From assembly GCF_900184685.1 (NCBI RefSeq), contig NZ_FXXL01000007.1, forward strand, positions 1 through 64,000: a stretch of 64,000 bases of DNA. The letters are read 5' to 3'. Source of the stretch: Butyricimonas sp. Marseille-P3923 (GTDB lineage Bacteria > Bacteroidota > Bacteroidia > Bacteroidales > Marinifilaceae). The notes below the pieces were generated by a model that was not told the DNA's origin, did not search any database, and saw only the letters and a list, made by a program, of their open reading frames with translations. Made by a program: the position numbers and the translations under genes. Positions 24,817 through 55,578 of this stretch are shown in pieces. How positions within the stretch are numbered: the stretch's first letter is position 1; each line of letters starts with the position of its first letter.

Positions 24817-25380
24817 ATGTGTAATGTTGACGGTGAATTTATTCGGCAAATTAATGTGAAGCAAGTTTCGGCTTACCGGGAGTTGTTTAAACGATTCTAC
24901 AGCTACATGGTGTTGTACGCGATGCGTCGAGTACAACAGAGGGAGGTTGCTGAAGATATCGTGCAGGAGGTTTTTATCGCTATATGGGAGGGGAGTAAGG
25001 TGTTTAATTCCTATCGTGGATTTCGGGCGTATTTGTATGATTTAGTAAATAACAAGTGTTTGGATTATTTGAAACACAAAGCAGTGGAGGAGCGGTATGT
25101 TGTTTACATGATGGAGAATCAACAAGAGGGGGAAGATGGTGAGTTTGGCTTGATGAGGGAGGAAATTTACCGGGAGTTGTATATTGCTGTTAGTGAGTTG
25201 CCTGAACGTTGTCGGGAGGTGTTCGAGTTGCATTTAAAAGGCAAAAAGAATGACGAGATTGCTGAGTTGTTGTCATTGTCTGTTCAAACCGTGAAAGCGC
25301 ATAAAAGAAATGCGGTATGTTTTTTGAAGGAGCGTTTAGGGAATGTGTTTTTCTGGGTTCTGTTATTTAAGTTGATTTAA
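24817..25380 (+). CDS. ECF RNA polymerase sigma factor (locus 1)
   Basis: 187-residue FecI-like sigma-70 family factor. Region 2 lies around residues 20-85 (AEDIVQEVFIAIWE is the -10 recognition/core-binding helix), and region 4 around 125-180 with the HTH LPERCREVFELHLKGKKNDEIAELLSLSVQTVKAH. It is the first gene of a locus that continues with FecR, SusC and SusD, the standard Bacteroidetes arrangement in which the outer-membrane receptor signals through FecR to this sigma. Confidence 0.93.
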   Translation: MCNVDGEFIRQINVKQVSAYRELFKRFYSYMVLYAMRRVQQREVAEDIVQEVFIAIWEGSKVFNSYRGFRAYLYDLVNNKCLDYLKHKAVEERYVVYMMENQQEGEDGEFGLMREEIYRELYIAVSELPERCREVFELHLKGKKNDEIAELLSLSVQTVKAHKRNAVCFLKERLGNVFFWVLLFKLI

Positions 25381-25455
25381 TTTTTTTGTTTTTTTTCTTG
25401 CTTGAAATCAATTGGTTGATGTTTTTCCGGTAAAAAAGTGATTTTTCTTTTACCT

Positions 25456-25485
25456 CTTTTGGGTACTCTTGTCGTATAGGGAGTA
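25456..25485 (+). promoter_or_regulatory. Candidate shared regulatory motif ahead of fecR 1
   Basis: CTTTT (25456-25460), 14 nt, TATAGGGAGTA (25475-25485), then the fecR ATG 15 nt later. The same two blocks at the same spacing occur ahead of fecR 2 (44320-44349). A promoter read by the cognate ECF sigma is one reading; the role is inferred. Confidence 0.45.
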
Positions 25486-25500
25486 AAAAAAAGATGTATA

Positions 25501-26667
25501 ATGAATGTGTATAATGAAAATATTGTTCGATTGATCCGTCTTTACTTGGCAGGTTCGATTTCGGATGAGGAGAAGGCCGTGTTGGAATCGTGGGTGGAGG
25601 AACGGGAAGAAAATCGGTGTTTTTTCAAGGAGATGTTGCGGGATAATCGTTTTGCTTCGGAATTTCCGGAATTTCGTGATATTGATATGGAAAAAGGGTG
25701 GAGTTGTTTCTTGAATCGGACTCAAGCGAGAAAACCTAAGTTGTTTACACGTGTATTGAAGTACGTGGCGGCGGTAGTTATACCGGTTGCGATCGGTTTG
25801 GCGGTTTGGCTGGCGGGTAAAGATGTTACTTTGGATCCACAGCAGATTGGCGGGGTGATTTATCCCGGGATGAATAAGGCGACGTTGATTCTTTCCGATG
25901 GAGTGAAAGTGTCTTTGGGCAAGCTCGAAGAAAGTGAGATAAGGTTGGAAGAGGGGAGAAGGGTACGCAGGACGGATGGTGGTTTGGTGTACGAGGACGG
26001 CGGGAACGGGAAAAAAATTGAGTTGAAGTATAATACCTTGCAAATTCCCAAGGGCGGGGAGTTTCATTTAACTTTATCCGACGGGACCCGGGTTACGTTA
26101 AATTCAGCCACGGATTTGAGATACCCGGTGATATTTGACGAGAATGAACGTCGGGTTTTTCTTTCCGGGGAGGCTTATTTTGAGGTGGCAACGGATTCTA
26201 CCCGCCCGTTTTACGTGATGACGGACGAGGTGCAGGTGCAAGTGTACGGGACTTCGTTTAACGTGAATACACGGCGACCGGAAGGGATTCAAACGGTTTT
26301 GGAAAGTGGAAAAGTCGGGATAAAGGCTATCCGTTCCGGGAATGAATGTGTTTTGAAGCCGGGAGAGCTTGCTTGTTTTGATCCGAAAGACGGTTCGATG
26401 GCGATTCGACAGGTGGATCCCCGGCAGTATTTGGCTTGGGTGAAAGGTGTTTTTGCTTTCGAGGATGAAACTTTGGAGAATATCATGACTACTCTTTCTT
26501 TGTGGTATGACGTGGAAGTATTCTATCAGACGGAATCCGTGAAGCAATTGCATTTTTCCGGGTATTTGGGAAGGTATAAAGAGATACAAAATATTTTTGA
26601 TGTTATAACCGAGGCTACTGGTGTGTTGTTCTCGGTGAAGGGGCGTACAATAGTGATTTCACGATAA
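25501..26667 (+). CDS. FecR-family anti-sigma/signal transducer (locus 1)
   Basis: 388-residue inner-membrane protein. The cytoplasmic N part (about 1-80) would bind the sigma factor; one TM segment follows (YVAAVVIPVAIGLAVWLAG, near residue 90); the periplasmic FecR domain holds IPKGGEFHLTLSDGTRVTLNSATD and GEAYFEVATD; and a C-terminal DUF4974-type STN-like region holds FSGYLGRYKEIQNIFDVI. It would receive the signal from the STN domain of the downstream SusC. It lies 120 nt after the sigma gene. Confidence 0.93.
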   Translation: MNVYNENIVRLIRLYLAGSISDEEKAVLESWVEEREENRCFFKEMLRDNRFASEFPEFRDIDMEKGWSCFLNRTQARKPKLFTRVLKYVAAVVIPVAIGLAVWLAGKDVTLDPQQIGGVIYPGMNKATLILSDGVKVSLGKLEESEIRLEEGRRVRRTDGGLVYEDGGNGKKIELKYNTLQIPKGGEFHLTLSDGTRVTLNSATDLRYPVIFDENERRVFLSGEAYFEVATDSTRPFYVMTDEVQVQVYGTSFNVNTRRPEGIQTVLESGKVGIKAIRSGNECVLKPGELACFDPKDGSMAIRQVDPRQYLAWVKGVFAFEDETLENIMTTLSLWYDVEVFYQTESVKQLHFSGYLGRYKEIQNIFDVITEATGVLFSVKGRTIVISR

Positions 26668-26673
26668 TAGAAA

Positions 26674-26700
26674 ACGGAAGGCGTTGGAAGCACCTCCCGT
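26674..26700 (+). promoter_or_regulatory. Hairpin in the leader of susC 1
   Basis: ACGGAAGGCG and CACCTCCCGT pair at 8 of 10 positions around the 7-nt loop TTGGAAG, 73 nt before the susC ATG. A hairpin with the loop GTGGAAG occupies the same place in locus 2 (45548-45575). Confidence 0.5.
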
Positions 26701-26772: not shown

Positions 26773-29700
26773 ATGCAAAAAAATGGAAATTGTCCGCCAT
26801 TCTTACGGGGATGTGGACACAAATTTTGGAAAATTATGAGAGTGTTTCTCGTTTTAATGATTGGATTTACATTTTCTCTTTCGGCAAGTAGTTTTGCCCA
26901 ACAGGAGAGAGTGAGTTTGGACATGAAAAATGTAACGGTGAAAATGTTGTTTGATGAGATTCAACGACAGACGGATTTACATTTTCTCTTTAACACGGAG
27001 CAGACAAACCAATTGGGGAAGTTATCAATCAAGGTGGAGAGTGAAACCGTGGAGAATGTGTTGAAGCGAATTTTTGAAGGGACGGATTTGGTCTACAATT
27101 TCAGGGGGAATATTATCGTGGTGAAGCGTGAGGTGAAAGTCGCGGATGATGAACAAAAGAAAAGTATCCGTATCGTGGGTAGGGTAACGGACGAGAAGAA
27201 ACTTCCTCTTCCGGGTGTGACGGTGCTGGTGAAGGGTTTGACGCTCGGAACGGTGACGAACGTGGAGGGACGGTATGTCTTGAATTTGCCGGCGATGGAA
27301 AAGTTTACCTTGTTGTTTTCTTTCGTGGGAATGGAGAATCGTGAAGTCGCTTACACGGGTAAGGATACGATTAACGTGGTGATGAAGGAATCGGAGGTAA
27401 CCTTGGATGAGGTGGTTGTCGTGAGTACGGGGTATCAGACGATTGACAAGCGGAAACTGACAAGTGCCGTGACTTCGATCAAGGCGGAGGATATTATCGT
27501 GCCGGGATTGAATAGTATCGACCAGATGTTGGAAGGGCATGTGCCGGGAATGATTTTTATGCAGAATTCGGGACAAGTGGGTGCTGTTCCACGTTTGAGA
27601 ATCCGGGGGACTTCTACTATTTTAGGGAATCAGGAACCTGTTTGGGTGGTAGACGGAATTATTCAACAGGATCCGGTGGATATTGATCCCTCGCAGCTTA
27701 ATGATTTGGATTTCGTGAATTTGTTGGGTAATGCGATTTCCGGATTGAACCCGGAGGATATTGAGCAGATAGATGTTTTGAAAGATGCTTCGGCTACCGC
27801 TATTTACGGTGCTCGTGCGGCAAACGGTGTTATCGTGATCACGACTAAAAAGGGTAAGGAGGGTCCCCCGACGATTAATTATTCGGTAGCGGGAACTTTT
27901 ACGCGTCGTCCGCATTACGGGGATAAAAGTGTGAATATGATGAATTCGAAGGAGAGAATCGCTTTGTCGAGGGAATTGGTAGAGAAAGGAATTGTATATA
28001 ACACGGTTGACTCGTGGGTCGGATACGAGGGGGCTTTACGTGATTATTGGAATGACAAGATTGATTTCAATCAGTTCCAAAAAGAGGTAGGCAGATACGA
28101 GTCGATGAACACGGATTGGTTGGATTTGCTGTTGCAGAATTCTTGGTCTCATAGGCATACTTTGGGTATTTCCGGGGGATCGTCTTCGTTAAAATATTAC
28201 GCTTCTTTGGGATATAATGATAGCCAAGGAACGACGAAAGGGGAAGGAATGAAGAATTACACGACAAGTGTGAATCTGACGGCTAATTTGAATAACGTGA
28301 CTTTGCGTTTTGGTATGAATGGAAATGTGTCCGATCGCTCTTATACTCCTTCCGAGGTAAATGTGTTGGGATATGCATATAACACGAGCCGGGCTCTTCC
28401 CGCTTTTAATGAAGATGGAAGTTTGTGGTTTTATAAACGTAGAGGTTATTCTAATGATTGGTGTCCATATAGTATTATTAATGAGATGAATAATAGCTCT
28501 TATGATGTGGATTCCAAGAGTATGAGTGTGAACGCTACTGTTGATTGGCGTATGATTGAGCCTTTGAAATTAGGTTTGACATTCTCGTATTCCACTTCTT
28601 CGACGGATGTGGATACTTGGTATGGTCAGGAGTCTTTTTACGTGAGAAAGTTAAGACAGACGGATAGTTTACTTAAAGATCCCGATAAAGACGAGGATCA
28701 GGTGAACGAGTGTCCGGTGGGAGGAGAGTTGAAGAAAGAAAATTCCGACAGTGAGTCTTGGACTTTGCGTGCCCAGTTGGATTTCAATAAGTATTTGGAT
28801 ACAGAGAGGAATCATCAGATTGTGGCTACAGTCGGTGCGGAGGCTTCTTCCAGTCATTACACGAGTGCGCGTAAAACGTATAGGGGATATACTCCGGAGC
28901 GAGGTCTGTTGGTAGCGGAGATAGATTTGGCTTATTATCAAGCGTTCCGTAGATGGAGTCAAACGAGTGAGGCTAGAGGTGTGTTTTCTGATTCCAAAAC
29001 GAATTTGGTTTCCGGTTACGCATCATTGTCATACGATTACAAAGGGCTGTATATGTTTAACGCGAATATGCGTTTTGATACGTCTAATAAATTCGGTACG
29101 AAGGCGAATGATAAAATTACTCCTATATGGTCTGTATCCGGACGTTGGAATATTAAGAATGATTTGTTCGAGGATGTAAATTGGTTGGGAAGTTTATCTT
29201 TACGTGCTTCTTTTGGTTATCAAGGAAATATGTTAGAGTCCGAAAGTTCGAAGTTGGTTATACGCAAGGGAGATATGAATTCTACTTTGGGTGAATACGC
29301 TTCTTTTGTTGAGACGTTCCCGAATCCCTCGTTGAAATGGGAAAAAACGGCTTCTACCAATGTGCAGTTGGATTTTGATTTATTTAAAGGAAGATTATCT
29401 GCCAGTGTAAGTTATTATTATAAGAAGACGAATGACACATTCTTGACGAAAACAATTTCACGTGTTAACGGGCGAGAAGATTACGTGCTGAACAAGGGAA
29501 CCTTGGAAAATAAGGGATTCGAGTTCTCGTTGAGAGTTATTCCCGTGAACACGCTTTCCGCGGAGAATCCTAATGGTTTCCGGTGGATTTTTGATCCTCA
29601 GTTGGGGCAGGTATTGAATCAGTTGACGAAAGGACGGAAGGTGAAAGATAAATCCATGCATGACCGGTATACTTATGAAGATTACTTGAACGGTAGTGCC

Positions 29701-30480
29701 CAAATCGTGGGACGTCCCTTGAATACTTTCTATTCGTACAAGTTTAAAGGGTTGGATCCGACTGACGGGTGTCCGATGTTTTATGATGTAGACCAGTATG
29801 ATTATGACGAGGAGGGAAATGTTGTGTTGGATAGGGGGGCTTTGTACGATGCAATGGATCGTGATGATGTGTTTACCACCGTGTTAGAACATTCCGGTAC
29901 TCGTGTGCCCGTTATTCAGGGTGGATTGACCAATAGTTTTACTTATCGTCGATTTACTTTATCGTTTAATCTGGCTTATAGTTTGGGTTCTAAAGTTCGT
30001 TTGTTAAAGATGTACCCGGATTTGGAAACTACTTACGGAACGATAGCTCCCCAGCCAACAGCGAACGCGAGGAAAGAGTTTATAAATCGTTGGAGATATC
30101 CCGGTGATGAACGCAAAACGACGATTCCGGGTATCGTTTCCGGTGCAAGGTTTGGACAGACGATGGGAATGTGGTGCGTGGAAAAACCTTATAATTTCGG
30201 GAAGAACCTGTGGAATATGTGGGATAATTCCAATATTCGGGTGGTTAGCGGTGATTATCTCAAGTTGCAATCTTTGTCATTACGTTATAATGTACCGGAG
30301 GCTTTCGCGAGGAAAATGTATATGAAGTCGGCGTATATCGGTTTCTCTTGCACGAACTTATTTATGATTTGTGACAAGAAGTTAAAGGGACAGGATCCAG
30401 CTGTTCAATCGGGTTCTGCCCCGTCGATTAATATGTCGCTTTGTCCGACTTTTTCAATGAATTTAAATGTAACGTTTTAA
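26773..30480 (+). CDS. SusC/RagA-type TonB-dependent receptor with STN domain (locus 1)
   Basis: 1235-residue outer-membrane transporter. Signal sequence to about residue 43 (SASSFAQ); STN domain about 50-110 (signalling to FecR); carboxypeptidase-regulatory-like beta domain about 130-215 (GRVTDEKKLPLPGVTVLVKG); plug about 215-345 with DEVVVVSTGYQ and DVLKDASATAIYGARAANGVIVITT; then the 22-strand barrel to the C-terminal NLNVTF. It imports large substrates, with SusD as the lid, using TonB energy. The ATG at 26773 shares its context with the locus 2 SusC gene. Confidence 0.95.
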   Translation: MQKNGNCPPFLRGCGHKFWKIMRVFLVLMIGFTFSLSASSFAQQERVSLDMKNVTVKMLFDEIQRQTDLHFLFNTEQTNQLGKLSIKVESETVENVLKRIFEGTDLVYNFRGNIIVVKREVKVADDEQKKSIRIVGRVTDEKKLPLPGVTVLVKGLTLGTVTNVEGRYVLNLPAMEKFTLLFSFVGMENREVAYTGKDTINVVMKESEVTLDEVVVVSTGYQTIDKRKLTSAVTSIKAEDIIVPGLNSIDQMLEGHVPGMIFMQNSGQVGAVPRLRIRGTSTILGNQEPVWVVDGIIQQDPVDIDPSQLNDLDFVNLLGNAISGLNPEDIEQIDVLKDASATAIYGARAANGVIVITTKKGKEGPPTINYSVAGTFTRRPHYGDKSVNMMNSKERIALSRELVEKGIVYNTVDSWVGYEGALRDYWNDKIDFNQFQKEVGRYESMNTDWLDLLLQNSWSHRHTLGISGGSSSLKYYASLGYNDSQGTTKGEGMKNYTTSVNLTANLNNVTLRFGMNGNVSDRSYTPSEVNVLGYAYNTSRALPAFNEDGSLWFYKRRGYSNDWCPYSIINEMNNSSYDVDSKSMSVNATVDWRMIEPLKLGLTFSYSTSSTDVDTWYGQESFYVRKLRQTDSLLKDPDKDEDQVNECPVGGELKKENSDSESWTLRAQLDFNKYLDTERNHQIVATVGAEASSSHYTSARKTYRGYTPERGLLVAEIDLAYYQAFRRWSQTSEARGVFSDSKTNLVSGYASLSYDYKGLYMFNANMRFDTSNKFGTKANDKITPIWSVSGRWNIKNDLFEDVNWLGSLSLRASFGYQGNMLESESSKLVIRKGDMNSTLGEYASFVETFPNPSLKWEKTASTNVQLDFDLFKGRLSASVSYYYKKTNDTFLTKTISRVNGREDYVLNKGTLENKGFEFSLRVIPVNTLSAENPNGFRWIFDPQLGQVLNQLTKGRKVKDKSMHDRYTYEDYLNGSAQIVGRPLNTFYSYKFKGLDPTDGCPMFYDVDQYDYDEEGNVVLDRGALYDAMDRDDVFTTVLEHSGTRVPVIQGGLTNSFTYRRFTLSFNLAYSLGSKVRLLKMYPDLETTYGTIAPQPTANARKEFINRWRYPGDERKTTIPGIVSGARFGQTMGMWCVEKPYNFGKNLWNMWDNSNIRVVSGDYLKLQSLSLRYNVPEAFARKMYMKSAYIGFSCTNLFMICDKKLKGQDPAVQSGSAPSINMSLCPTFSMNLNVTF

Positions 30481-30490: not shown

Positions 30491-31984
30491 ATGAAAAAGA
30501 TAATAAATATATTTGGTATTCTGTGGAGTGTACTGTTAGTGGCTTGTGGGGATTTTTTAGAAGAGTATCCTAGAGATTTGCAATATGTAAATTCAATTTC
30601 GGATTTAAGCGAGTTGCTGGTAGGAGATGGTTACATGATCTCTCGAGAAACAGGTCAATACGAAGATGAAGGTGAAACAACGATAGCTTCGTGGATTCAC
30701 TTGATGGATGATGATGTGCAGTTATCATCTAGACCAAGTTATTTGGGAAGTATGGGGAATGCGCTTTATCTGGGGTATTACGAGTGGTTGAAGTTACCGA
30801 GTACGAGTGAAAATGGAACTGTTGAGAATGACGAAGTGTGGAGTGGGTTGTACGAGCATATAGCTTCTTTGAACGTGATATTGGATGAGGTGGAAGCCTT
30901 TCAGGATGCCGGTGCGGACTACCATCGGGTTAAGGGGGAAGCCTTGTTTTTGAGAGCTACTTACTATTTCTGGTTGGTGAATTTGTATGCCAAACCTTAT
31001 GTGGCGGGGAGTGCCGCCACGGATTTGGGTGTTCCTATTAAAGTGAGCGCAGAGGTGGAAGACAAAGATTTTGTCCGTGATCCGGTGGCAGAGGTTTATG
31101 GTTTGATGGTGGAGGATTTATCAGAGGCTATCTCGAATTTAAAAGGTGTCGTGCAACCTTCGGTTTATCGGGCTAATGAATCGGCGGCTAGAGCTTTGTT
31201 GAGCAGGGTGTATCTTTACATGGGAGAATGGGAAAAGTGTGATAAACAATGCGATACCATTATGCAGGCAGCTTATCGTTTACAGGACTTGAATGTATTG
31301 GCATCGGGTTCCAGCATGCTTTCTTCCAAATCTCCGGAGACGATTTTTTCCATGGGAGAATATCGTTTAAATGCTATGGTGGGATGGAATTCGAAGCCGA
31401 CGTATGCGATGTCTGCCGATTTGGAAGATGCTTTTTCTAATCAAGCAAATGATTTGCGTTATCAATTTGGGATTGAGATTAATTCCTACGGGAATTACCC
31501 TTTGAAATTTAAAAAATGGTCGGATGGAGGAGTGTCTGATTGTAACTTGGTGCGGTACGCGGAGGTTTGTTTGAATAAGGCTGAGGCGTTAGCGATGTTG
31601 GATGATGATAAGGGTGCGAGAGAGGTTATGCATTCTTTTCTAGCAACTCGTTATCGCACTGGTGGTGTGCCGGATATTGCAACAAAAACGGGGAAAGATT
31701 TGGTGAATTTCATCCGGAATGAGCGTCGTTTGGAATTGTGTTTCGAGGGACATCGTTGGTTCGATTTGCGTCGTTATTCAGTGAGTCCCAAATACCCGGA
31801 AACAAAGCCGATAAGACATGAGGTACGCGTTAAGGATTCTGGTATAGCGTATGGATATTATGAACTGGAAGCCTATCCTAACGGTGGGTGGGTTTTGCCA
31901 ATCCCTACGTATGAATTACAGTTTACGGATGGTAATATGGTAAATAATGAAAGACCTGCTCCCGTGTATGTGGAATATGAATAG
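30491..31984 (+). CDS. SusD/RagB-family lipoprotein (locus 1)
   Basis: 497-residue surface lipoprotein (signal, then LLVACGD lipobox) that caps the SusC barrel and binds substrate. SusD signatures are GEALFLRATYYFWLVNLYAKPY (tetratricopeptide-like helices), ARALLSRVYLYMGEW, and the C-terminal FIRNERRLELCFEGHRWFDLRRY block. It follows susC by 10 nt. The substrate cannot be predicted from the sequence; the neighbouring proteases suggest peptides. Confidence 0.94.
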   Translation: MKKIINIFGILWSVLLVACGDFLEEYPRDLQYVNSISDLSELLVGDGYMISRETGQYEDEGETTIASWIHLMDDDVQLSSRPSYLGSMGNALYLGYYEWLKLPSTSENGTVENDEVWSGLYEHIASLNVILDEVEAFQDAGADYHRVKGEALFLRATYYFWLVNLYAKPYVAGSAATDLGVPIKVSAEVEDKDFVRDPVAEVYGLMVEDLSEAISNLKGVVQPSVYRANESAARALLSRVYLYMGEWEKCDKQCDTIMQAAYRLQDLNVLASGSSMLSSKSPETIFSMGEYRLNAMVGWNSKPTYAMSADLEDAFSNQANDLRYQFGIEINSYGNYPLKFKKWSDGGVSDCNLVRYAEVCLNKAEALAMLDDDKGAREVMHSFLATRYRTGGVPDIATKTGKDLVNFIRNERRLELCFEGHRWFDLRRYSVSPKYPETKPIRHEVRVKDSGIAYGYYELEAYPNGGWVLPIPTYELQFTDGNMVNNERPAPVYVEYE

Positions 31985-32002: not shown

Positions 32003-32935
32003 ATGATGAAAAATTTAATTGGAATATTATTGTTGTCATTGTTTGCTTTGGCAAGTTGTCATGATGATGAAAATAGTACGTTATCTCCGTCAAACGTGGA
32101 TGTGGATTGGTACGTGATAAAGGATAATCCCAATGATGAATTGGATCATTTGATTTATGAAATTTATAGTAAATACCAAATGCCTGTTTATTATAATGAC
32201 ACGATCGGAAAGGAGTATAGAGGCTTGGATGCGAACGGGGATTCGATTATTTATTATAAGACCATGATGTTAGGTTACTCTATAGAGGAAGATGTGACCA
32301 GTTTGAAATACACTCTTTCGAAACAGCGTCAAGATATACTGGAGGGTGTGAAGTTTTTGGAAGAGTATGTTATTCCTTTCCAGCAAGCAGGTATGAAACC
32401 TAGATGCTTTTTGCTTGTGGAAGACATGATACTTAGTGATGAGCCGGTAGATCTTTATTATGGAATGTCGGGAGCGGCAATCTCTCGTATCGCGGAATTA
32501 AAGGATATGACACGGGAAGATAAAGAAGCTTTTGGTTTGAGAGTTCGGGGGTCTGAATGGGCGCATGCTTTAGTGAATAGTTATCCGGAGCAGTTGGAAG
32601 ATTTTTATAGGCTTTCGGATAATTTTAATTTGAATGGAGAGTTAAAAGCTATGCACCGTCAAGATATTCGAAATTCTTTATGGGGTGCGACATTTGCTTG
32701 GAAATCTAAAGAAGAATATGGTTTTTTAAGTTCTACTCCTTCTTCATATTGGGGGGAAGCTTATGTCTGCCCGACAGAATCTGCGGATGTACTTGATTTT
32801 GTTATGGAGGTGTTGAAAGATGATGAGGTAAACTTTCAAAAGACTCATGCCGAGCATTCAATCATATTGAGTAAATATGAGTATATGAAAAAGTTGGTCG
32901 CTTCGGTTAAAGAGGATTTGGCTGCGAGAAAGTGA
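32003..32935 (+). CDS. Lipoprotein resembling Bacteroidetes putative zinc metallopeptidases, degenerate motif
   Basis: 310 residues with lipoprotein signal LFALASCHDD. The layout resembles the SusD-associated putative zinc-binding metallopeptidase family: an early YQMPVYYND segment, a central helix FLEEYVIPFQ followed by the PRCFLLVEDM strand, then the position where HExxH is expected. Here the sequence reads SEWAH, so the first histidine is replaced by serine and the second is kept. It may bind rather than cleave substrate. The assignment is by pattern and moderately sure. The upstream TTG at 32000 is not needed, since ATG codons follow at 32003 and 32006. It overlaps the next gene by 4 nt if that gene starts at its GTG. 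Confidence 0.6.
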   Translation: MMKNLIGILLLSLFALASCHDDENSTLSPSNVDVDWYVIKDNPNDELDHLIYEIYSKYQMPVYYNDTIGKEYRGLDANGDSIIYYKTMMLGYSIEEDVTSLKYTLSKQRQDILEGVKFLEEYVIPFQQAGMKPRCFLLVEDMILSDEPVDLYYGMSGAAISRIAELKDMTREDKEAFGLRVRGSEWAHALVNSYPEQLEDFYRLSDNFNLNGELKAMHRQDIRNSLWGATFAWKSKEEYGFLSSTPSSYWGEAYVCPTESADVLDFVMEVLKDDEVNFQKTHAEHSIILSKYEYMKKLVASVKEDLAARK

Positions 32936-34053: not shown

Positions 34054-34135
34054 AAGCGATGATTGTTTATAGCGTCTTGAAATATGGAAGTTTGTATTTT
34101 ATGTAATCATAATGTTTAATTTTAAATTATTAAAA

Positions 34136-36812: not shown

Positions 36813-36848
36813 AAAAAGGCTGTTCAAAATAAAATGAACAGCCTTTTT
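36813..36848. terminator. Bidirectional terminator after locus 1
   Basis: Perfect 14-bp stem AAAAAGGCTGTTCA / TGAACAGCCTTTTT with an 8-nt loop, between convergent genes. Confidence 0.9.
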
Positions 36849-38729: not shown

Positions 38730-38732
38730 GAA

Positions 38733-45547: not shown

Positions 45548-45575
45548 ACCGGTGGCATGTGGAAGATGCCCCGGT
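45548..45575 (+). promoter_or_regulatory. Hairpin in the leader of susC 2
   Basis: ACCGG-(T)-GGCAT pairs with ATGCC-CCGGT around the loop GTGGAAG, with one bulged T and otherwise perfect. It ends 54 nt before the susC start. The locus 1 leader has a comparable hairpin with the loop TTGGAAG (26674-26700). Confidence 0.55.
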
Positions 45576-45628
45576 CATTCAACCTCTTGGAAAACCAAGA
45601 AATTATTAATTTAATGTTTTACAAATCT

Positions 45629-48600: not shown

Positions 48601-49009
48601 GACAATTGGTTTTGGTATGAAATGGGGAGGGAAAGCAGTAAATTTCACGGAATTAGCGAAAGGTGAGAATGCGACTACGACGTTTAATATGGATCGTCGG
48701 ATGATGAAACACAGTTGGCAACAGGTGGGCGATCAAGCGCGTTATAAAAATAAGCACGGTGATTATGCCGGATTAAGTACGTTCACGTGTGATGCTTTCG
48801 TATGTAAAGATAATGTGTTCAGTTGTAACAATATCAATCTTTCCTATTCTTTCTCGCAAAATTGGTTCAAGAGAGCTACTGGATTGGAAAGTTTATCTAT
48901 TTCGGCTTCTTTATCGGATATTTTTTATTTTTCCACGATCGAGCGAGAGAGAGGAACGGCTTATCCGTTCTCGGTTAATCCGAATTTCTCGATTTCATGT
49001 ACATTTTAA
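45629..49009 (+). CDS. SusC/RagA-type TonB-dependent receptor with STN domain (locus 2)
   Basis: 1126 residues from ATG 45629. Signal (about 1-40, LTSPLVFGQQ), STN domain (about 45-110, VTVLDAIKEINRLSG), carboxypeptidase-regulatory-like domain (VKGFVYEQNKDVLPGVTVKVAG, near 130), plug (VDEVVVTGIFNKPKESFTG; ILKDASATSLYGSRGANGVIVITT near 330), and the barrel to FSISCTF. Upstream in-frame ATGs (45557, 45614) exist, but ATG 45629 lies in the context ACAAATCTATGCAAAAAAAT, which is almost identical to that of susC 1. It imports its substrate together with SusD 2 and TonB energy. Confidence 0.94.
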   Translation: MQKNREMKHPKMFSASCRRLSVIGISLLVWMMLTSPLVFGQQNGKLISLKLDKVTVLDAIKEINRLSGNSVSYKREELEKEVRQVSLELKDVQIIKAVEAVLQGTRLVAIAQGEIILIVPRKDDVGLKSLRVKGFVYEQNKDVLPGVTVKVAGIPLGTSTNTMGWFAIDLPIQEGKLEFSFVGYKKKVVNFTATTDTLRVVMEEDFQQVDEVVVTGIFNKPKESFTGAVTAITKEDLKTNFSRNLIQTLANIDASLLIVQNNNMGSDPNTLPEIQLRGASTMLDLSDLESQTRHPEYNQPLFIMDGFEVDLERVMDLNQNDIENITILKDASATSLYGSRGANGVIVITTTLATAGALTVSYEGRLNLQIPDLSTYDNLMTASEKFEMEKIYGVWDNLESYLPNGQTYQEAYDEIEAAIAAGRNYDWLKVPTRTGVGQYHSLRFMGNQENWNYMLSLSYEDVKGVMKESERKNFNGTMQLGYRKDKWNIRQSLSVGFNRNQDSPYGKFSNYVQMNRYWEPYDESGKPVDYFYHPSSSYGPIDNPLYDHAVGVWNKTKYMNLRSNTAIDFTINQNLKAQATFGLNFKNTRYDGFTPPEHKNFEYVTEVERKGSYGRREGEETMWQMRLMLNYNNIFSEKHMVTLGINGELSETISDDVNWVATGFISSNVSHPGMSMSYPSSGGTNGSESTVRRASLIATANYYYDQRYFVDFSINYNGGSSYGKNSRFQYFYSVGAGWMVNNEMFVKEHLPFINEMRFRYSFGVTGNMFASPEVSMEVFKRNSSNVYLGGIAWTLGQFANPDLEQQNTYQHNVGLDLKLFNSRVTGSLNYYNYLTNNTLTEMGLPISHGFERIMGNVGKIRNEGWDGNVDVLLYRNTEKKVSWRLFTSFSKRKNTVVKLSEGYKKRIEGYNKGMSNSTDILKYREGYSLDAIYGLRTVGVDPTSGQRVFLKADGVTTTLEQDSDDLVYLGNLQPKLNGTFGTSFYYGGFSMTIGFGMKWGGKAVNFTELAKGENATTTFNMDRRMMKHSWQQVGDQARYKNKHGDYAGLSTFTCDAFVCKDNVFSCNNINLSYSFSQNWFKRATGLESLSISASLSDIFYFSTIERERGTAYPFSVNPNFSISCTF

Positions 49010-49020
49010 AATTCAAACTT

Positions 49021-50493
49021 ATGATGAAAAAAGTTATATACACGGTAGGGTTGAGTATGATGCTGTGTGCTTGTACCGATTGGTTGACCGTGCAGCCGGA
49101 AGCATCGATGACTACAGAGACGTTGTTCCAAACGGATAACGGCGTGAAATACGGGTTGAACGGAGCATACATGCTCGCACAATATGTTTATGGACCTTCG
49201 GGATCTTTGGGGGGAACAAGTATCGTGGAAAATATGGCTAATACTTATCTTTATACGATAAATTCGGACGGGGAGAAATGGGCAAATCATATTTATGAGG
49301 ATACAGATTCTCAAAAGGACGTTAATGCAAGTACTTTTTTACAATCTTATAACATTATTGCTAATTTGAATTCCTTGCTTAATGAAATGGTTGCTCATCA
49401 AGGTAAGATTACGCCCGAGTGTTATGCTATTGTACGGGGGGAAGCTTTTGCTTTGCGTGCTTGTTGTCATTTCGATTTGCTGCGAGTGTATGGACCCGTG
49501 CCTTCTAAAGTGGATGCGGGAAAGAGGTATTTACCCTACGTGCGGGTGAATGATCCGGAGAATTACGAGTATCATACTTTTGACCAATTTATAGAATATG
49601 TGCAGGCAGATTTAGATAGTGCAGAGTTTTTGCTGGGGAAATACGATCCGGTGTTAACTACTAATATTTCTTATACAGAATCGACTTCGTACGAGTGGTC
49701 CTATCGTAAGAGTCGTATAAATTACTATGGCGTGTTGGGATTGCAGGCTCGCGTGGCTTTATGGAACGGAGAAGAAGAGAAAGCCGTGCGTTACGCAAGG
49801 TTGGTGAAGGATGCTAAGGATTCGGAAGAGTCGTGGGCACAATTACAATTCAAATTAACTACTCCGGATGATGATGTGAATAGTTTTTACACGACTGATT
49901 TGTCGCATTATTCGGAGCATATCTGCGGGGTGAAGTGTGATCAATTCGATTTTAGTACTTCATTATGGGCTCCAAGAAGATTAGCTGCAACTAATGACGT
50001 GAGTTATAGAGAACTGTTGTATGGTGAAAATTATGCAGATGATTTGCGTTACCAGCATTTTTGGAAAACGGGAAGCGGAACATGGTATGCCCCAGATGGA
50101 AGTATACTGGAACAATATAAGGTGATTTCTATTACTATTAATAAATTCAGCCAATTTTTAGCGAATTCCACGAACAATTGCAAGGATAATTTTCCGATTA
50201 TGCGTTTACCTGAAATCTATTTCATTATGATGGAGTGTGGGCCTTTGGATGAGGCGAATGTTCTGTACGAGGAATATTGTTCTGCACGTAATATAGAGTA
50301 TGTCCCTTTAACCGATGCGGATCGCCAAGAGCGTGTTATGTTAGAGAGTATCAGGGAATACGTGGCTGAAGGACAAAATTTCTTTACGTATAAACGGAAT
50401 AACGTGAGACGTATGTTTGGGGCAACGTCGGATTGTTCGGAGGATCAATATATCGTGCCGATTCCGGAAGCTGAAAGTTTGAATGTAAAATAA
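49021..50493 (+). CDS. SusD/RagB-family lipoprotein (locus 2)
   Basis: 490 residues from the ATG at 49021 (MMKKVIYT), with lipobox MLCACTDW. SusD-type features are VRGEAFALRACCHFDLLRVYGPVP, the YYGVLGLQARVALWNGEEEKAVRYA helix, and the C-terminal ESIREYVAEGQNFFTYKRNN block, which is shorter than in locus 1 SusD. A start at 48997 would overlap the susC stop and displace the signal peptide, so it is rejected. It forms the lid of SusC 2. Confidence 0.92.
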   Translation: MMKKVIYTVGLSMMLCACTDWLTVQPEASMTTETLFQTDNGVKYGLNGAYMLAQYVYGPSGSLGGTSIVENMANTYLYTINSDGEKWANHIYEDTDSQKDVNASTFLQSYNIIANLNSLLNEMVAHQGKITPECYAIVRGEAFALRACCHFDLLRVYGPVPSKVDAGKRYLPYVRVNDPENYEYHTFDQFIEYVQADLDSAEFLLGKYDPVLTTNISYTESTSYEWSYRKSRINYYGVLGLQARVALWNGEEEKAVRYARLVKDAKDSEESWAQLQFKLTTPDDDVNSFYTTDLSHYSEHICGVKCDQFDFSTSLWAPRRLAATNDVSYRELLYGENYADDLRYQHFWKTGSGTWYAPDGSILEQYKVISITINKFSQFLANSTNNCKDNFPIMRLPEIYFIMMECGPLDEANVLYEEYCSARNIEYVPLTDADRQERVMLESIREYVAEGQNFFTYKRNNVRRMFGATSDCSEDQYIVPIPEAESLNVK

Positions 50494-50500: not shown

Positions 50501-51058
50501 ATGAAAAAGATATTAATGATGATATGGGGTGCCTGTTTATGGGGTGCCTGTGAAAAAGCGGAAGTTCCTTCCACGTATAACGGACCTGATGGCATTCATT
50601 TTTATTATGATCAAGCAGGACCTTTCGATGCGGATCCTTATCCGAATTCTGATAAAACAGGGTATTTATCCCTTTCTCAAGAGACGGATACTCTTTGGTA
50701 CAAGATTGACGTCATGGGAAATGTGAGTGGAAAAGAACGGAAATTTGCCCTAAAACAAAGTGTCTTGTCTTCGATAGATAGTTCTTCTTATTACACGGGG
50801 ATAGCGACGGTAGCTGTTCCGGGTGTGAATTATGTAGCTTTTGATGATCCCCGGATGGAGGAATATTACGTGATACCGCCTCATACTTCAAGTATATTGG
50901 TGCCGGTGATACTATTGCGTGATCCGGATGTTGATTTCGGATCTTCTTGGTCCAAAACATTTTGCTTGCATTTTGAGATCGTGCCGAATGATGAAGTGAA
51001 GATTTTGGATTCGAGATTTTATAGAGGAAAGGCTAAGTTTACTCAATGGAGTTGGTGA
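50501..51058 (+). CDS. DUF4843-type lipoprotein (locus 2)
   Basis: 185-residue lipoprotein (MKKILMMIWGACLWGACEKA). The pattern GIHFYYDQ near the start, DTLWYKIDVMGNVSGKERKFAL in the middle and YVIPPHTSSILVPVILLRDPDV fits DUF4843, a beta-rich family that follows SusD genes and is thought to assist at the surface. It starts 7 nt after the susD stop. Function is inferred from position only. Confidence 0.82.
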   Translation: MKKILMMIWGACLWGACEKAEVPSTYNGPDGIHFYYDQAGPFDADPYPNSDKTGYLSLSQETDTLWYKIDVMGNVSGKERKFALKQSVLSSIDSSSYYTGIATVAVPGVNYVAFDDPRMEEYYVIPPHTSSILVPVILLRDPDVDFGSSWSKTFCLHFEIVPNDEVKILDSRFYRGKAKFTQWSW

Positions 51059-51061
51059 CGG

Positions 51062-51085
51062 GAGGGTGTGTTTTAACACACCCTC
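51062..51085 (+). terminator. Terminator-like hairpin after the DUF4843 gene
   Basis: Perfect 9-bp stem GAGGGTGTG / CACACCCTC with loop TTTTAA, but no T run. It may separate the SusC-SusD-DUF4843 unit from the thioredoxin genes or reduce read-through. Confidence 0.5.
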
Positions 51086-51236
51086 TGGTTCATAAAGTCC
51101 ATAAAGTTGAGCCTTTGGTTCTTAAAGTTTATAAGGTCAATTGATAGAATATTAAGTATTTACAAAAAACAGAAGACCTTTTGACCTTACGGACGTTATG
51201 GACTTTACAGACCGGAGGTGCGTTTTGCCACACCTC
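51086..51236. repeat. Family-C dispersed repeat, copy 3 (no core)
   Basis: The left side has GGTTCATAAAGTCCATAAAG and AAAGTTTATAAGGTC; the right side has GACCTTACGGACGTTATGGA and CTTTACAGACC. The GCGGGCGCTTTGT core of copies 1 and 2 is missing; an AT-rich stretch replaces it. A second hairpin GAGGTG/CACCTC lies at the right end. Confidence 0.65.
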
Positions 51237-51324
51237 TTTATCACCAGAGAAATAAATCAGGTATTTTAAATTGTTAAATATATTGGCGGGTGTAATCTCG
51301 CTTGATATTAATTTGTATTTAGTT

Positions 51325-52413
51325 ATGAAAAAGATAGTATTGTTGTTTGTAGCCGTGTGTCTTATGTTGTCTTTGTCGGCTCAGACAAATTTTCAGAATT
51401 TGGTATTAGACAAAGCTTTGGATAAAGCTAAAGGAGAGGGGAAGATGGTGTTCGTGGATTGTTACACTTCTTGGTGTGGTCCTTGTAAGATGATGGCGGA
51501 GGAAATATTACCCTTGAAGGAAGTGGGCGAGTACATGAACGAAAAGTTCGTGTGCGTGAAATATGATATGGAGAAAGGGGAAGGCCCGGAAATCGCAAAA
51601 AAATATGGAGTGAGTTCTTACCCGACATTTTTGTTATTGAACACGGACGGGAGTTTGAAAGATCGGGTCGTGGGTGCCTCTTTTGCTGGCGAGGAGTTCG
51701 TTTATAAAATGAAGTTAGCCATAGGGGATATTTCAACGGTACGGATGGATTCTTTGTATGCTGCCGGAAATCGGATGAGTAGGTTTATCCTCTCGTATTT
51801 GAAAGCGTTGCAAGCAACCCAACAGTATGATAAGGCACGAGTGATTTCAACAGAGTTGATCAAATCGTTGAATGATAAACAGAAGGCGTATGCCACCTAT
51901 TGGTTCCTTTACGAGGACATCAATATTTCGCCGTTAGGTTCCGAGAACGTGGATTATCTCTTGGAGCACGCCGCTAATTTTCGAGAAGGTGTGGGAAAAG
52001 AGATCGTGAACGTGAAGCTCGCTTCTCTTTTTGAGGTACAATTGGAGGATATGCTTAGAGGAAGAAACAAGCGGGTCACCTTGTATGACGTGGAAACAAT
52101 CGAAAAACGATTACGAGCATGTCAAATGACGGACAGGAAAGATTTAGTCGATTACATTGTTTTGGTGAAAGCGATGTTGACCAAGAATGCTGATGAAGCC
52201 TTTGCCGTGTGCACGAGATTATTTCCCGAGATGGCGGAGGATAAGTTGAGTTATCTCTATTTTAACCCGATATTGACTTTGAAAGGAAAATGGAGCGAGG
52301 AACAAAAAGCGGAATTGATTAAAATGTCAATGGTATTGTCTAAAAAAGTGAAAAATCCAGTGTTAAGTGATGGTTTTGTCAATTTTGCGAACTCAATAAT
52401 TCCCAATCTCTAA
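51325..52413 (+). CDS. Exported thioredoxin-like protein (locus 2, first of three)
   Basis: 362 residues from the ATG at 51325 with a signal peptide (LFVAVCLMLSLSAQ). The thioredoxin fold is near the N terminus: CYTSWCGPCKMMAEEI with Cys51 and Cys54, and GVSSYPTFLLL carrying the cis-Pro. The remaining 220 residues are helical, with TPR-like spacing (YDKARVISTELIKSL). This is the DsbD-c/thioredoxin_7-like arrangement with a helical tail. It probably reduces disulfides in the envelope. The longer frame from 51271 would bury the signal peptide. Confidence 0.87.
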   Translation: MKKIVLLFVAVCLMLSLSAQTNFQNLVLDKALDKAKGEGKMVFVDCYTSWCGPCKMMAEEILPLKEVGEYMNEKFVCVKYDMEKGEGPEIAKKYGVSSYPTFLLLNTDGSLKDRVVGASFAGEEFVYKMKLAIGDISTVRMDSLYAAGNRMSRFILSYLKALQATQQYDKARVISTELIKSLNDKQKAYATYWFLYEDINISPLGSENVDYLLEHAANFREGVGKEIVNVKLASLFEVQLEDMLRGRNKRVTLYDVETIEKRLRACQMTDRKDLVDYIVLVKAMLTKNADEAFAVCTRLFPEMAEDKLSYLYFNPILTLKGKWSEEQKAELIKMSMVLSKKVKNPVLSDGFVNFANSIIPNL

Positions 52414-52428: not shown

Positions 52429-52932
52429 ATGAGAAGATTATTCTTGATAATTTGTCTTTTGTTACCTCTTTTGGGTAGGGCAGATGAGGAATCGAAAGTG
52501 AAAACATTGAAAAAAGGGGATAGCTGTCCGAGGTTCGTTTTTAAAGATACGAAAGGACATGAGATGTCGTTGGAACAATTCAAGGGAAAATACGTGGTGC
52601 TTGACATCTGGGCATCGTGGTGTCACCCGTGCAAGCGAGAATTTCCGAGTTTGAAGAAGTTGGAAGAAAAATACAAGGGTAAAAATATTGTATTCGTGGG
52701 ACTCTCTTGTGATCAATCGGAATGGAGATGGAAGAATGAACTTGGTTTCCAGCGGGATATGGTGATGTATCAATGGTGGATTATGCGTGATGATTTTACG
52801 CGAGCGTTTCAAATTGCGGCGATCCCCCGTTTGATATTGCTGGATAAAAAAGGTCGTGTATTGCATTTGGCTTTACCGAAACCTTCAGATGAGAAGTTCG
52901 AGAAAATTTTGAATGAATTAAAAGAATTGTAA
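52429..52932 (+). CDS. TlpA-family thioredoxin, single domain (locus 2, second)
   Basis: 167 residues: a signal peptide (LIICLLLPLLGRA) and a compact TlpA/ResA fold with active site WCHPC (Cys65, Cys68) in DIWASWCHPCKREFPSL; His between the cysteines differs from the WCGPC of its neighbours, and DsbA proteins have a similar CxHC arrangement. The cis-Pro motif is AAIPRLILLD. It starts 15 nt after the preceding gene and ends 1 nt before the next, so the three form one unit. Confidence 0.9.
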   Translation: MRRLFLIICLLLPLLGRADEESKVKTLKKGDSCPRFVFKDTKGHEMSLEQFKGKYVVLDIWASWCHPCKREFPSLKKLEEKYKGKNIVFVGLSCDQSEWRWKNELGFQRDMVMYQWWIMRDDFTRAFQIAAIPRLILLDKKGRVLHLALPKPSDEKFEKILNELKEL

Positions 52933-52933: not shown

Positions 52934-54094
52934 ATGGTAGTTTTTCGTTACGTGAAACTATGGGTGCTATTATACGTGTTGACGTGGGGATGTGGTTCAT
53001 CATCCCGGGATGGTGAATTTACGTTGACCGTGACGATGGCGAAGGTGGAACCTCAGAGTAAAATCTTCTTGTTCTACAAGGATGTCAGTGATAATTTGCG
53101 GATGGATTCGGCTATTTATGTGAATGGACGATTTACGTTAAAGGGAGTAACACCTCTTCCCCAAAGGGCTTTGATGCGTTTGTCACGAGGGAATCAAGGT
53201 GCCCCCGTTTTTTTTGAAGATGCTGTTTATTTCACGGATGATGCGATTTTCTTGTTCCTCGAAGAAGGGGAGATTAAGGTATCGGTCCATGATGTATTGC
53301 GGGGGGCAAAGTTGGAAGGAACTCCTTTAAATAAAGATTTTCAGGTTTACACGGATAGCGTGCGTTTTTACAGGGATTGGTTGGACGGGTATCGGGAAAG
53401 GTTCGGAAAGGCCTATCGAGAGAGGAACAACGAGTCATTGGATAGCTTGAGTAAAGAGAATGCTGTTATGCGGGCGAAAAAGGTGAAAGCGGAAAGGAGG
53501 TATTTTGATACTCATCTTGGTTCTATCGTTGCTTTGGATTGGTTGGCGAGGACGTATAATATAGCTCGCGAGAAGTCAAAGATTGTCCCGTTATTCGAGA
53601 AGCTGGAGGAGCAAGTGAAGAGTTCTTTGCCGGGACAAAAGTACAAGGCATTGTTGGACTCGGTACCATCTGTTGAATTGGGGAATATGGCACCGGACTT
53701 TGTGGTGGAAAATTCAAAAGGAGAGAGAATAACGTTGAGTTCTTACCGGGGAAAATATGTGTTATTGGATTTTTGGGCATCGTGGTGTGGGCCTTGTCGG
53801 GCAGAAAACGTGAATGTATTGAAGGTGTATGATCGTTTCAAGGAGAAGGGATTCACGGTAGTAGGGTATTCTTTGGATTTTTCTCGAAAGTCATGGTTAA
53901 ATGCCGTGGAGAAAGACTCGTTGCCTTGGGAGCAGTTATCTGGTTTGGGTGATACAGAAATAGATGTGTCCAAATTGTACGGGGTAAGTGCTGTACCAAG
54001 TAATTTTCTAATAGATCCGGTTGGTAAAATTATAGCGATAGATTTGAGAGGTGAGGAGTTGGTAAAAAAGTTGGAGCAACTATTTTCTAATTGA
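52934..54094 (+). CDS. TlpA-type thioredoxin lipoprotein with DUF4369-like N domain (locus 2, third)
   Basis: 386 residues; lipoprotein signal with WGCGSS. The N half is beta-rich and DUF4369-like (GEFTLTVTMAKVEP, GRFTLKGVTPLPQRALMRL), then a helical linker, then the thioredoxin fold with WCGPC (Cys285, Cys288) and YGVSAVPSNFLIDP. The same layout is seen in the locus 1 thioredoxin gene. The ATG starts 1 nt after the previous stop. It is likely a substrate-facing disulfide reductase. Confidence 0.9.
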   Translation: MVVFRYVKLWVLLYVLTWGCGSSSRDGEFTLTVTMAKVEPQSKIFLFYKDVSDNLRMDSAIYVNGRFTLKGVTPLPQRALMRLSRGNQGAPVFFEDAVYFTDDAIFLFLEEGEIKVSVHDVLRGAKLEGTPLNKDFQVYTDSVRFYRDWLDGYRERFGKAYRERNNESLDSLSKENAVMRAKKVKAERRYFDTHLGSIVALDWLARTYNIAREKSKIVPLFEKLEEQVKSSLPGQKYKALLDSVPSVELGNMAPDFVVENSKGERITLSSYRGKYVLLDFWASWCGPCRAENVNVLKVYDRFKEKGFTVVGYSLDFSRKSWLNAVEKDSLPWEQLSGLGDTEIDVSKLYGVSAVPSNFLIDPVGKIIAIDLRGEELVKKLEQLFSN

Positions 54095-54104
54095 AAGTGT
54101 AATT

Positions 54105-55013
54105 ATGGAATTATATTGTAAGTTATCAAGTATTGTATTGAGTTGTATTCTAGTTGGAAGTATAAAATGCTTCGCCCAAAAAGGAGGTGATGTCGTTTAT
54201 CGTGACTATACTTGTCAGGAAGCAGCTTTGCTTGATTCATTGAAGCAGGAAAGAGTGTTACCTTTATTCAAAGGAATGAGGGCGTTACGGCAACAAGCAC
54301 AGGGGGTGAAGGAGAATACTCCGGTGAATATCATACCCCGGCGTGCGGGAAAATGGGTGATGACACCTGAGAATATAATCAAGGAAAGGAGGGCGAGTGT
54401 CTTGACTGTGAATAAATACCGGCGGAAAACGACTCGTCCGGAGAGCGTTATTGGGTGGGCAACAGCCGTCGTGTTGACAGCGGACGGTGTTTGCGTGACT
54501 AACTTTCACGTGTTTTGGGAATTACTCGATCCGGCAGCGAAATTGAACCCGGCGGATAGCGTGATATTCGTGGCGACAGAGGACGGTCGGGCTTACCCAA
54601 TCACGGAAATTCTCAGTTTTAACAAGGCGGCGGATATGGCTTTCTTCAAAATTGATACCCGGGGGGATGTGCTTACCTCGATGCCCTTGGGCGATGATCT
54701 TCCGGCGGGGGCGAACGTACATTTGTTGAGTAACCCGGAAGGTTACCCGTACGTGTACACGCACGGTAGGGTGTCACGGACAATCACGTTGAACCCAGGT
54801 GACATCTTTTCCCGCAGGATGGAAATGACGGCTGATTTCGCGAAAGGTTCAAGTGGCGGTCCGATCATGGATGACCGGGGAAATATGGTGTCGATGGTGT
54901 CGTGTATCCGTGCGATATACTTTTCCAATCAACCGCCTTATCATTTGCAAATGAACGTAAAGTTAACCGTTCCAGTGAGTGCGTTCAAGCGATTGTTGGT
55001 CAACGGGAATTAA
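54105..55013 (+). CDS. Exported trypsin-like serine protease (locus 2)
   Basis: 302 residues with a signal peptide (SIVLSCILVGSIKCFAQ). The chymotrypsin-fold triad is visible: His135 in VCVTNFHVFWE, Asp177 in FNKAADMAFFKID, and Ser250 in GSSGGPIMDDRGN. There is no PDZ domain after the protease part, unlike DegP/HtrA. It lies 10 nt after the third thioredoxin gene and so belongs to the locus 2 set. A role in cleaving imported or exported protein is inferred. Confidence 0.88.
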   Translation: MELYCKLSSIVLSCILVGSIKCFAQKGGDVVYRDYTCQEAALLDSLKQERVLPLFKGMRALRQQAQGVKENTPVNIIPRRAGKWVMTPENIIKERRASVLTVNKYRRKTTRPESVIGWATAVVLTADGVCVTNFHVFWELLDPAAKLNPADSVIFVATEDGRAYPITEILSFNKAADMAFFKIDTRGDVLTSMPLGDDLPAGANVHLLSNPEGYPYVYTHGRVSRTITLNPGDIFSRRMEMTADFAKGSSGGPIMDDRGNMVSMVSCIRAIYFSNQPPYHLQMNVKLTVPVSAFKRLLVNGN

Positions 55014-55088
55014 TGCATCGTGCTCGTGCATAAACTTTAAGCAGGAGATTATCCGTGCATGGGGTGGTTTCTCGTTTTTTGATAAATG

Positions 55089-55119
55089 AAACCTGCCGGG
55101 AGGCTTGTTTCTCGGGACA
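55089..55119 (+). repeat. Left inverted repeat flanking the LytTR gene
   Basis: AAACCTGCCGGGAGG, then CTTGTTTCTCGGGACA. It is nearly the reverse complement of 55589-55621 and lies in the leader of the LytTR gene, 15 nt before the ATG. Confidence 0.6.
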
Positions 55120-55134
55120 TAATATTTAATTATT

Positions 55135-55578
55135 ATGACTCAAGAACAGAATAATATAGAGATAGAAAATGACCTTCCGGCAGGTACAGCCGTCGTGGTA
55201 AGTGATCGTTATCGTAGAGATCGATTTTTCGTGTGGTACAATGACGCGTACCGGATTGTTTTGTGTTCCAATATCGCTTGGTTGCAAGCGGATCGTGATT
55301 ATTGTTACATTCATTTCAAGGACGGTGCTAAAATAATCGTAGTTCACCCGTTGAAAGAGGTGTTGGAGGTGCTTCCTTTTGAAGATTTTGCCCGTGTTCA
55401 CCGGAGTTATGCCGTTTGTTTGGACCTAGTGGACCGATTGGTCGGGAATACGATTTACATCGGCAAACAAGATTTCCCGGTGAGCCCCGCTTACAGGGAA
55501 GATTTACACTCCCGTTTCCGCTTTTTAGGAAAAGTGAAAGGATTGCATAAATCTAAACTCGTGAAAAATAATAAATAA
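55135..55578 (+). CDS. Stand-alone LytTR DNA-binding protein
   Basis: 147 residues with one LytTR domain at about 45-135: IAWLQADRDYCYIHFKDGAKIIVVHPLKEVLEVLP, then DFARVHRSYAVCLDLVDRL and the closing FPVSPAYREDL. No receiver domain and no membrane segment. It lies just downstream of the locus 2 protease gene. Proteins of this kind often autoregulate and act on neighbouring genes. It sits between two inverted repeats, one of which folds into a hairpin after its stop codon. Confidence 0.87.
   Translation: MTQEQNNIEIENDLPAGTAVVVSDRYRRDRFFVWYNDAYRIVLCSNIAWLQADRDYCYIHFKDGAKIIVVHPLKEVLEVLPFEDFARVHRSYAVCLDLVDRLVGNTIYIGKQDFPVSPAYREDLHSRFRFLGKVKGLHKSKLVKNNK

Follow-up and report, generated by a model that had tools for sequence, protein, structure and literature searches.

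Gene content of the two loci

The first 64,000 nucleotides of contig NZ_FXXL01000007.1 of Butyricimonas sp. Marseille-P3923 (the window) contain two loci in which genes for thioredoxin-fold proteins and proteases accompany a gene pair encoding a SusC-type transporter and its SusD lipoprotein. The first-pass annotation of this DNA had taken positions 24817-55578 together, as two parallel loci for the import of peptides or proteins. This stretch is not a single unit: about 7 kb of unrelated sequence (36867-43705) splits the two loci and holds genes for an ABC-F-like ATPase, an enzyme of DNA-alkylation repair, and a ParA-like ATPase, along with other open reading frames (ORFs). All genes of both loci lie on the forward strand.

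Locus 1 begins with genes encoding an extracytoplasmic function (ECF) sigma factor (24817-25380; Sigma70_r2 and r4_2), which is 88% identical to its syntenic copy in B. synergistica, a FecR-type anti-sigma factor (25501-26667; FecR and FecR_C), a SusC/RagA TonB-dependent transporter with an STN domain (26773-30480; STN, Plug, and CarbopepD_reg_2), and a SusD/RagB lipoprotein (30491-31984; SusD-like_3 and SusD_RagB). They are followed by genes for a probable surface lipoprotein, apparently a dead zincin of the Peptidase_Mx1 fold (32006-32935), a DUF4369-TlpA lipoprotein (32932-34053; AhpC-TSA/Thioredoxin_8, with a CGPC motif), and a met-zincin protease of the domain order DUF5118-DUF5117-DUF4953 (34112-36796; PF16313, E 8.9e-96). 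The TlpA protein, for which ATG 32944 is an alternative start, has SSQEG after the lipid cysteine and lacks an acidic surface signal. The met-zincin is recognised by both profile and motif, its zinc site HEIGHTLGMLH (HExxHxxGxxH) being intact, in agreement with the TlpA thioredoxin and protease named earlier for this locus. A perfect 14-bp palindrome 3' of the locus (36813-36848) is a possible bidirectional terminator.

The order of sigma factor, FecR, SusC, and SusD recurs in locus 2, where Pfam identifies the ECF sigma factor (43728-44279) and the FecR-type anti-sigma factor (44372-45541), followed by the SusC/RagA transporter (45557-49009; Plug and CarbopepD_reg_2) and the SusD lipoprotein (48997-50493; SusD-like_3, E 1.2e-13). 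The STN domain formerly assigned to both SusC proteins was confirmed in locus 1, and the match in locus 2 is weak (21.2 bits, under the cut-off of 28.4). The next gene (50501-51058) had been assigned to DUF4843. Pfam alone does not uphold this (E 0.057; 13.4 bits versus a gathering threshold of 34.5), but the BLAST relatives of the protein belong to a cluster represented by a protein with a clear PF16132 match (5.2e-27), and we retain the family name on that ground. DUF4843 was not found in papers in a search of the open-access literature.

The tail of locus 2 encodes three thioredoxin-fold proteins, namely a thioredoxin (51325-52413; E 6.2e-14, CGPC), a TlpA-like protein (52429-52932; Redoxin, E 7.9e-21, CHPC), and a DUF4369-TlpA protein (52934-54094; AhpC-TSA, E 3.7e-23, CGPC), and a trypsin-like protease (54105-55013; Trypsin_2, E 5.2e-17), whose His, Asp, and GSSGGP serine are visible by eye. 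The three thioredoxins and the protease are thus as first described, and a CxxC motif is present in all four thioredoxin-fold proteins of the window. At the boundary between the SusCD part and the tail lies a palindromic element with inverted repeats (51055-51260; folding energy -66.6 kcal/mol, z -5.6). The gap between the DUF4843-type gene and the first thioredoxin gene is 266 bp from ATG 51325 and 213 bp from TTG 51271, and locus 2 conforms to a 250-bp operon rule only with the earlier TTG start. The element has partial copies at other loci of this genome, and the loci of relatives gave a single weak hit.

A gene for a LytTR DNA-binding protein (55135-55578) ends locus 2. Among the five congeners read, it follows the protease in B. 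synergistica alone, and an 87% identical copy lies in another SusD stretch of the same genome (L097). A second trypsin-like gene (L167, G000:C6:59952-60836), 87% identical to the locus 2 protease, adjoins a thioredoxin-fold gene at the end of a SusD locus that also contains genes for GH92 and a phosphatase.

As noted before, neither locus encodes a glycoside hydrolase, lyase, or sulfatase, with zero matches to such Pfam families. A hit of HepC (heparin-sulfate lyase, NCBIfam) covering residues 1-53 of the 32006-32935 protein was dismissed at 15.4 bits against a cut-off of 600. In both loci the SusC TonB-dependent transporter adjoins the SusD lipoprotein, as in SusCD import systems generally. 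The polysaccharide utilisation loci of Bacteroides share with them the SusC-SusD pair, surface lipoproteins, and local regulation; however, both loci lack a carbohydrate-active enzyme and carry peptidases and thioredoxins instead. The nearest solved structures of the locus 1 SusC are 8ypu/8ypt, for which no paper was found in the open-access literature, followed by SusC and RagA chains. RagAB of Porphyromonas gingivalis, a peptide-importing SusC/SusD pair whose RagA chains match both SusC proteins described here, provides a precedent for peptide import by a SusCD-type system (PMC11817032). The available part of that source mentions neither thioredoxins nor disulfides, whereas here thioredoxins, proteases, sigma factor, and FecR are encoded together.

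Inactive and paired zincins

The gene that follows SusD in locus 1 (32006-32935) had been described as a metallopeptidase-like lipoprotein. Its product matches no Pfam family, even with the limit relaxed to E 1, and belongs to a family of 46 paralogues in this genome (the L family), each encoded directly after SusD. In a profile comparison the L family matched a cluster of three proteins with 99% probability over 266 columns, and the two cluster members that were scanned are both clear PF15890 (Peptidase_Mx1) metallopeptidases. An AlphaFold model of the family (34 members; pLDDT 85.6) superimposed on the Mx1 structure 4l7a with a Z-score of 11.2 and an rmsd of 4.3 over 201 residues, the next row having Z 7.3. 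Foldseek alone gave no match at E 0.001, with 4l7a ranked first at E 0.086. Homology to Peptidase_Mx1 and the predicted fold therefore agree with the earlier description; however, the HExxH motif is present in none of the 46 members, so the protein is not an Mx1-type enzyme, and the idea of an active metallopeptidase was dropped. The likeness to Peptidase_Mx1 lies in the predicted fold and in the place after SusD, the difference in the loss of the zinc motif. The locus 1 protein has HDDEN after its lipid cysteine. We read the L-family lipoprotein as a probable binding protein derived from a dead protease.

Loss of the zinc motif was also observed among the DUF4953 zincins themselves, in arrays read in this genome and in 20 arrays from two congeners, B. 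synergistica (G022) and G038, these 20 having been picked from PF16313 matches by spacing and some of them probably being orthologues of one another. In two-gene arrays the first copy has HExxH in 21 of 21 cases, while 18 of the 21 second copies no longer have it. The motif is retained in all 14 single zincins in operons of this genome, and in triple arrays it is lost in only one of 18 genes. Tandem pairs are located in L039, L112, L114, and L130 of this genome and in L177-L181, L183, L185, L186, L189, L190, and L192-L195 of the relatives. Judged by their motifs, the tandem DUF4953 zincins look like active-inactive protease pairs, a pairing known from M16 peptidases.

SusD operons across the genome

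Pfam profile searches of the 5.30 Mb genome detected 125 SusD, 126 FecR, 45 DUF4953, and 97 AhpC-TSA matches. One of the 125 SusD matches gave no gene, no gene lay within 250 bp in seven of 124 cassettes, and 117 SusD operons were delineated with genes called as the longest ORF; three stretches (L056, L096, and L131) end at the last match, 2.7 to 3.5 kb short of the contig ends. Both window loci are among these 117 operons, and the idea that they are two special loci was rejected on this count.

A thioredoxin-fold gene is present in 60 of the 117 operons and a peptidase in 34 (zincin in 21, S8 in 4, M16 in 3, Mx1 in 3, TldD in 2, and trypsin in 1). A scan of 40 of the 82 unannotated operon genes, mostly the longest, so that short sugar enzymes could escape, added three peptidase operons (M6, S9, and S41), bringing the number to at least 37. 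Among the scanned genes, glycoside hydrolases were found in four operons (GH92, two alpha-L-fucosidases, and one alpha-galactosidase); thus, there are about nine peptidase operons for each glycosidase operon. The location of these genes is more than chance: 26 of the 45 zincins lie within 5 kb downstream of a same-strand SusD and three upstream, with a mean of 2.5 for rotated positions, and for AhpC/TlpA matches the corresponding numbers are 49 of 97, none, and 6.4.

One could suppose that glycoproteins or mucin glycopeptides are the substrates of the loci, the peptidases stripping the protein and the sugars being removed elsewhere. The four glycosidase operons (a zincin is also present in two of them) make a glycoprotein substrate possible, but no sugar enzyme was found in either window locus or, among the scanned genes, in the other 113 operons, and we consider this explanation improbable.

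The operons differ in the first gene after SusD, on the basis of which they were divided into scaffold classes, cluster family names being taken from one or a few representatives. The L family accounts for 46 operons, DUF4843 or a similar protein, in most cases with PKD_2, for 30, a pair of unannotated lipoproteins for 17, DUF4959 with an F5/8-type protein for seven, and Peptidase_Mx1 with DUF4302 for three; the remaining 14 were classed as other. Representatives of the unannotated pair (e.g., L048:1798-2493 and L026:7154-7702) have no Pfam match; the first lipoprotein of this class presumably resembles a fasciclin domain, a likeness seen by eye only.

Eleven SusD operons (e.g., L074, L125, L126, and L128) end in genes for a GldA-like ATPase, the call scoring below the GldA family cut-off, and an ABC-2 permease, and these avoid thioredoxin (1 of 11, P 0.004). 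A sigma factor, FecR, and an STN domain together constitute regulation of the ferric-citrate type. The presence of this set and of the eleven ABC transporter operons could suggest uptake of iron carriers, heme, or peptide antibiotics under FecIR control, as for ferric citrate. Fec-type cell-surface signalling indeed shares with locus 1 the ECF sigma factor, FecR, and the STN-bearing transporter. The difference lies in the many parallel copies, reflected in the 126 FecR matches, and in a gene content without any sign of iron; more than 100 such loci, at least 37 of them with peptidases, are unlike iron uptake, which makes this possibility very unlikely.

Conservation in related genomes

Locus 1 has a syntenic counterpart in B. 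synergistica (L009), with identities of 81-93% and 92% for the zincin. The nearest zincins of three other congeners (L168, L169, and L171) follow SusD without TlpA and are accompanied by an L-family protein, a DUF4843-PKD pair, or another lipoprotein. The architecture of locus 2, comprising sigma factor, FecR, SusC, SusD, a DUF4843-type protein, thioredoxins, and trypsin, was found in all five other Butyricimonas genomes searched (L154-L158), with one thioredoxin fewer in L157 and one more in L154.

The trypsin-like gene has 17 matches in 12 of 56 genomes of the family, and 16 of their neighbourhoods, a second copy in G014 being left out, were read. In all 16 loci, distributed over five genera but related by descent and hence not independent within a genus, the trypsin gene adjoins a thioredoxin-fold gene on at least one side. 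In L159-L161 this neighbour has no CxxC by a simple pattern, but another with CxxC is located further along the row. SusD is present in 15 of the 16 gene rows, while the sixteenth (L172) starts at DUF4843 at a contig edge. Conserved co-occurrence of SusCD, thioredoxin, and protease genes, which the first-pass annotation had offered as a check of its proposal, therefore holds for the trypsin type, no relative without these neighbours having been found among the 16 loci, and for locus 1 in B. synergistica, but not for the nearest zincins of the three other congeners.

The relatives also show enrichment near SusD. Within 8 kb of SusD, among the matches listed, lie 17 of 47 AhpC-TSA genes and 21 of 52 zincins in B. 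synergistica and 19 of 73 AhpC-TSA genes in G038, each more than the maximum of 300 rotations; enrichment thus reappears in three of four comparisons in these two congeners. All counts for relatives are lower bounds: the AhpC matches taken were 47 of 84 (G022), 73 of 120 (G038), and 23 of 34 (G006, a distant family member), and the SusD matches 63 of 102, 61 of 131, and 12 of 18, respectively. Two fragmentary zincin rows of G022 (52 of 54 used) and the genome G005 were left out.

Predicted location of the proteins

Acidic stretches after the lipid cysteine act as a surface export signal in Bacteroidetes (PMC5080379). At least two acidic residues in the five positions after this cysteine were found in 28 of 36 L-family, 16 of 18 PKD_2, and 15 of 22 DUF4843 lipoproteins and in only 2 of 22 TlpA lipoproteins (the first three versus TlpA, P 7e-9). 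A lipobox is present in 5 of 30 DUF4953 zincins and 4 of 33 proteins of the thioredoxin-1 type. These figures rely on simple patterns for signal peptides and lipoboxes and include some false sites. The pattern suggests that the L, PKD_2, and DUF4843 lipoproteins are surface-exposed, while the thioredoxins and proteases are probably periplasmic. With the scaffold lipoproteins at the surface and TlpA not, reduction would follow import, and disulfide opening before import is therefore disfavoured.

One DsbD_TM match above the cut-off, in a 675-residue frame, was found in the genome, and this protein could supply electrons. A 653-aa protein with a C-terminal DsbD_N match (L040:4146-6107) is encoded in a SusD-DUF4843-PKD-TlpA operon and represents a possible electron link for the thioredoxins.

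Proposed function

Import of peptides or proteins, as originally proposed, is the best-supported reading, the excess of peptidases over glycoside hydrolases in the SusD operons being one ground for it. We propose, with a probability of roughly 55%, that both loci belong to a large family of self-regulated Butyricimonas loci that import proteinaceous substrates through SusCD. SusD and the surface lipoproteins (the dead zincin of locus 1 and the DUF4843-type protein of locus 2) would bind the polypeptide, and SusC would import it using TonB energy while signalling via STN to FecR and the sigma factor, by which the locus would be switched on. In the periplasm, the thioredoxin-fold reductases would open disulfides of the substrate, and the zincin or trypsin-like protease would cut the chain.

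Several observations weigh against this proposal. Thioredoxin and peptidase occur independently over the 117 operons (16 have both; odds ratio 0.79, P 0.68), leading us to reject a general thioredoxin-protease link, and thioredoxin is present in 7 of 21 zincin operons versus 53 of 96 without zincin (P 0.09). Thirty of the 117 operons lack thioredoxin, the initially counted peptidases, and ABC genes altogether, and four have glycosidases. Depending on which of two simple patterns is used, 15 or 19 of the 98 thioredoxin-fold proteins lack CxxC; therefore, not every one of them need be a reductase. The acidic signal is not universal, being found in 3 of 13 and 2 of 11 proteins of the two unannotated lipoprotein types and in 58 of 92 SusD proteins. 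In locus 2 the palindromic element separates the tail from SusCD, and both SusC proteins match SusC and RagA structures alike. Among the matches listed for relatives, zincins of G038 near SusD are not above chance (4 of 20; rotated mean 1.0, maximum 6), and in G006 none of 23 AhpC-TSA matches showed SusD-TlpA linkage.

The mechanistic coupling of disulfide reduction and proteolysis suggested earlier is thus only half supported: it fails as a general rule, zincin operons tending to lack thioredoxin, but finds support for particular peptidase types. All eight operons with S8, M16, or trypsin peptidases have a thioredoxin (4/4, 3/3, and 1/1, respectively; P 0.006), a grouping picked after the data were seen. 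Thioredoxin also accompanies S41 (1/1) and TldD (1/2) but not Mx1 (0/3), S9 (0/1), or M6 (0/1), and the 10 of 16 non-zincin peptidase operons with thioredoxin are near the base rate of 60 in 117. The link of trypsin with thioredoxin in the relatives is stronger evidence than the grouping of eight, and gene neighbourhood supports a coupling of thioredoxin and protease for the trypsin type.

Alternatively, the thioredoxins could act not on the substrate but on the envelope proteins of the locus itself, in their assembly or disulfide repair. Consistent with this, SusD proteins have about five cysteines each, 44 of the 60 thioredoxin operons have none of the counted peptidase kinds, and the first lipoproteins of the DUF4843 class average slightly more cysteines with thioredoxin (1.43) than without (0.88) (14 and 16 operons, no significance figure). 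However, SusD cysteine content does not differ (4.85 with versus 5.32 without thioredoxin, P 0.45), and a role in SusD folding was set aside for this reason; L-family counts are equal (2.33 versus 2.32), and those of the unannotated class run in the opposite direction (2.0 versus 3.1). The cysteine counts speak against a role in own-protein repair, as does the adjacency of trypsin and thioredoxin genes in all 16 loci, and we regard it as rather unlikely.

Implications for Butyricimonas

SusCD loci of gut Bacteroidota are commonly taken as sugar-utilisation loci. Extending the proposal of a proteinaceous substrate to the whole genome, one could tentatively hypothesise that the SusCD systems of Butyricimonas form a protein-eating apparatus of more than 100 FecIR-controlled loci with interchangeable scaffolds (dead zincins, DUF4843-PKD pairs, and others) and periplasmic tails (active-dead zincin pairs, thioredoxin-protease sets, and ABC transporters), each locus possibly tuned to a class of folded, often disulfide-bonded proteins. 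No paper on Butyricimonas SusCD loci with thioredoxins or peptidases was found by title or abstract in a search of open-access papers. To judge from that search, the features that seem to be new are the scale, the modularity of the tails, the dead zincin as a partner, and the conserved set of thioredoxin and trypsin genes.

If a butyrate-producing gut genus devotes many of its SusCD loci to protein, counts of such loci would mislead on sugar use, and the genes behind colonic protein breakdown would become testable. The dead zincin as a third SusCD partner and the active-dead zincin pairs are directly testable structural predictions. The redox step would give anaerobes a way into disulfide-locked dietary or host proteins.

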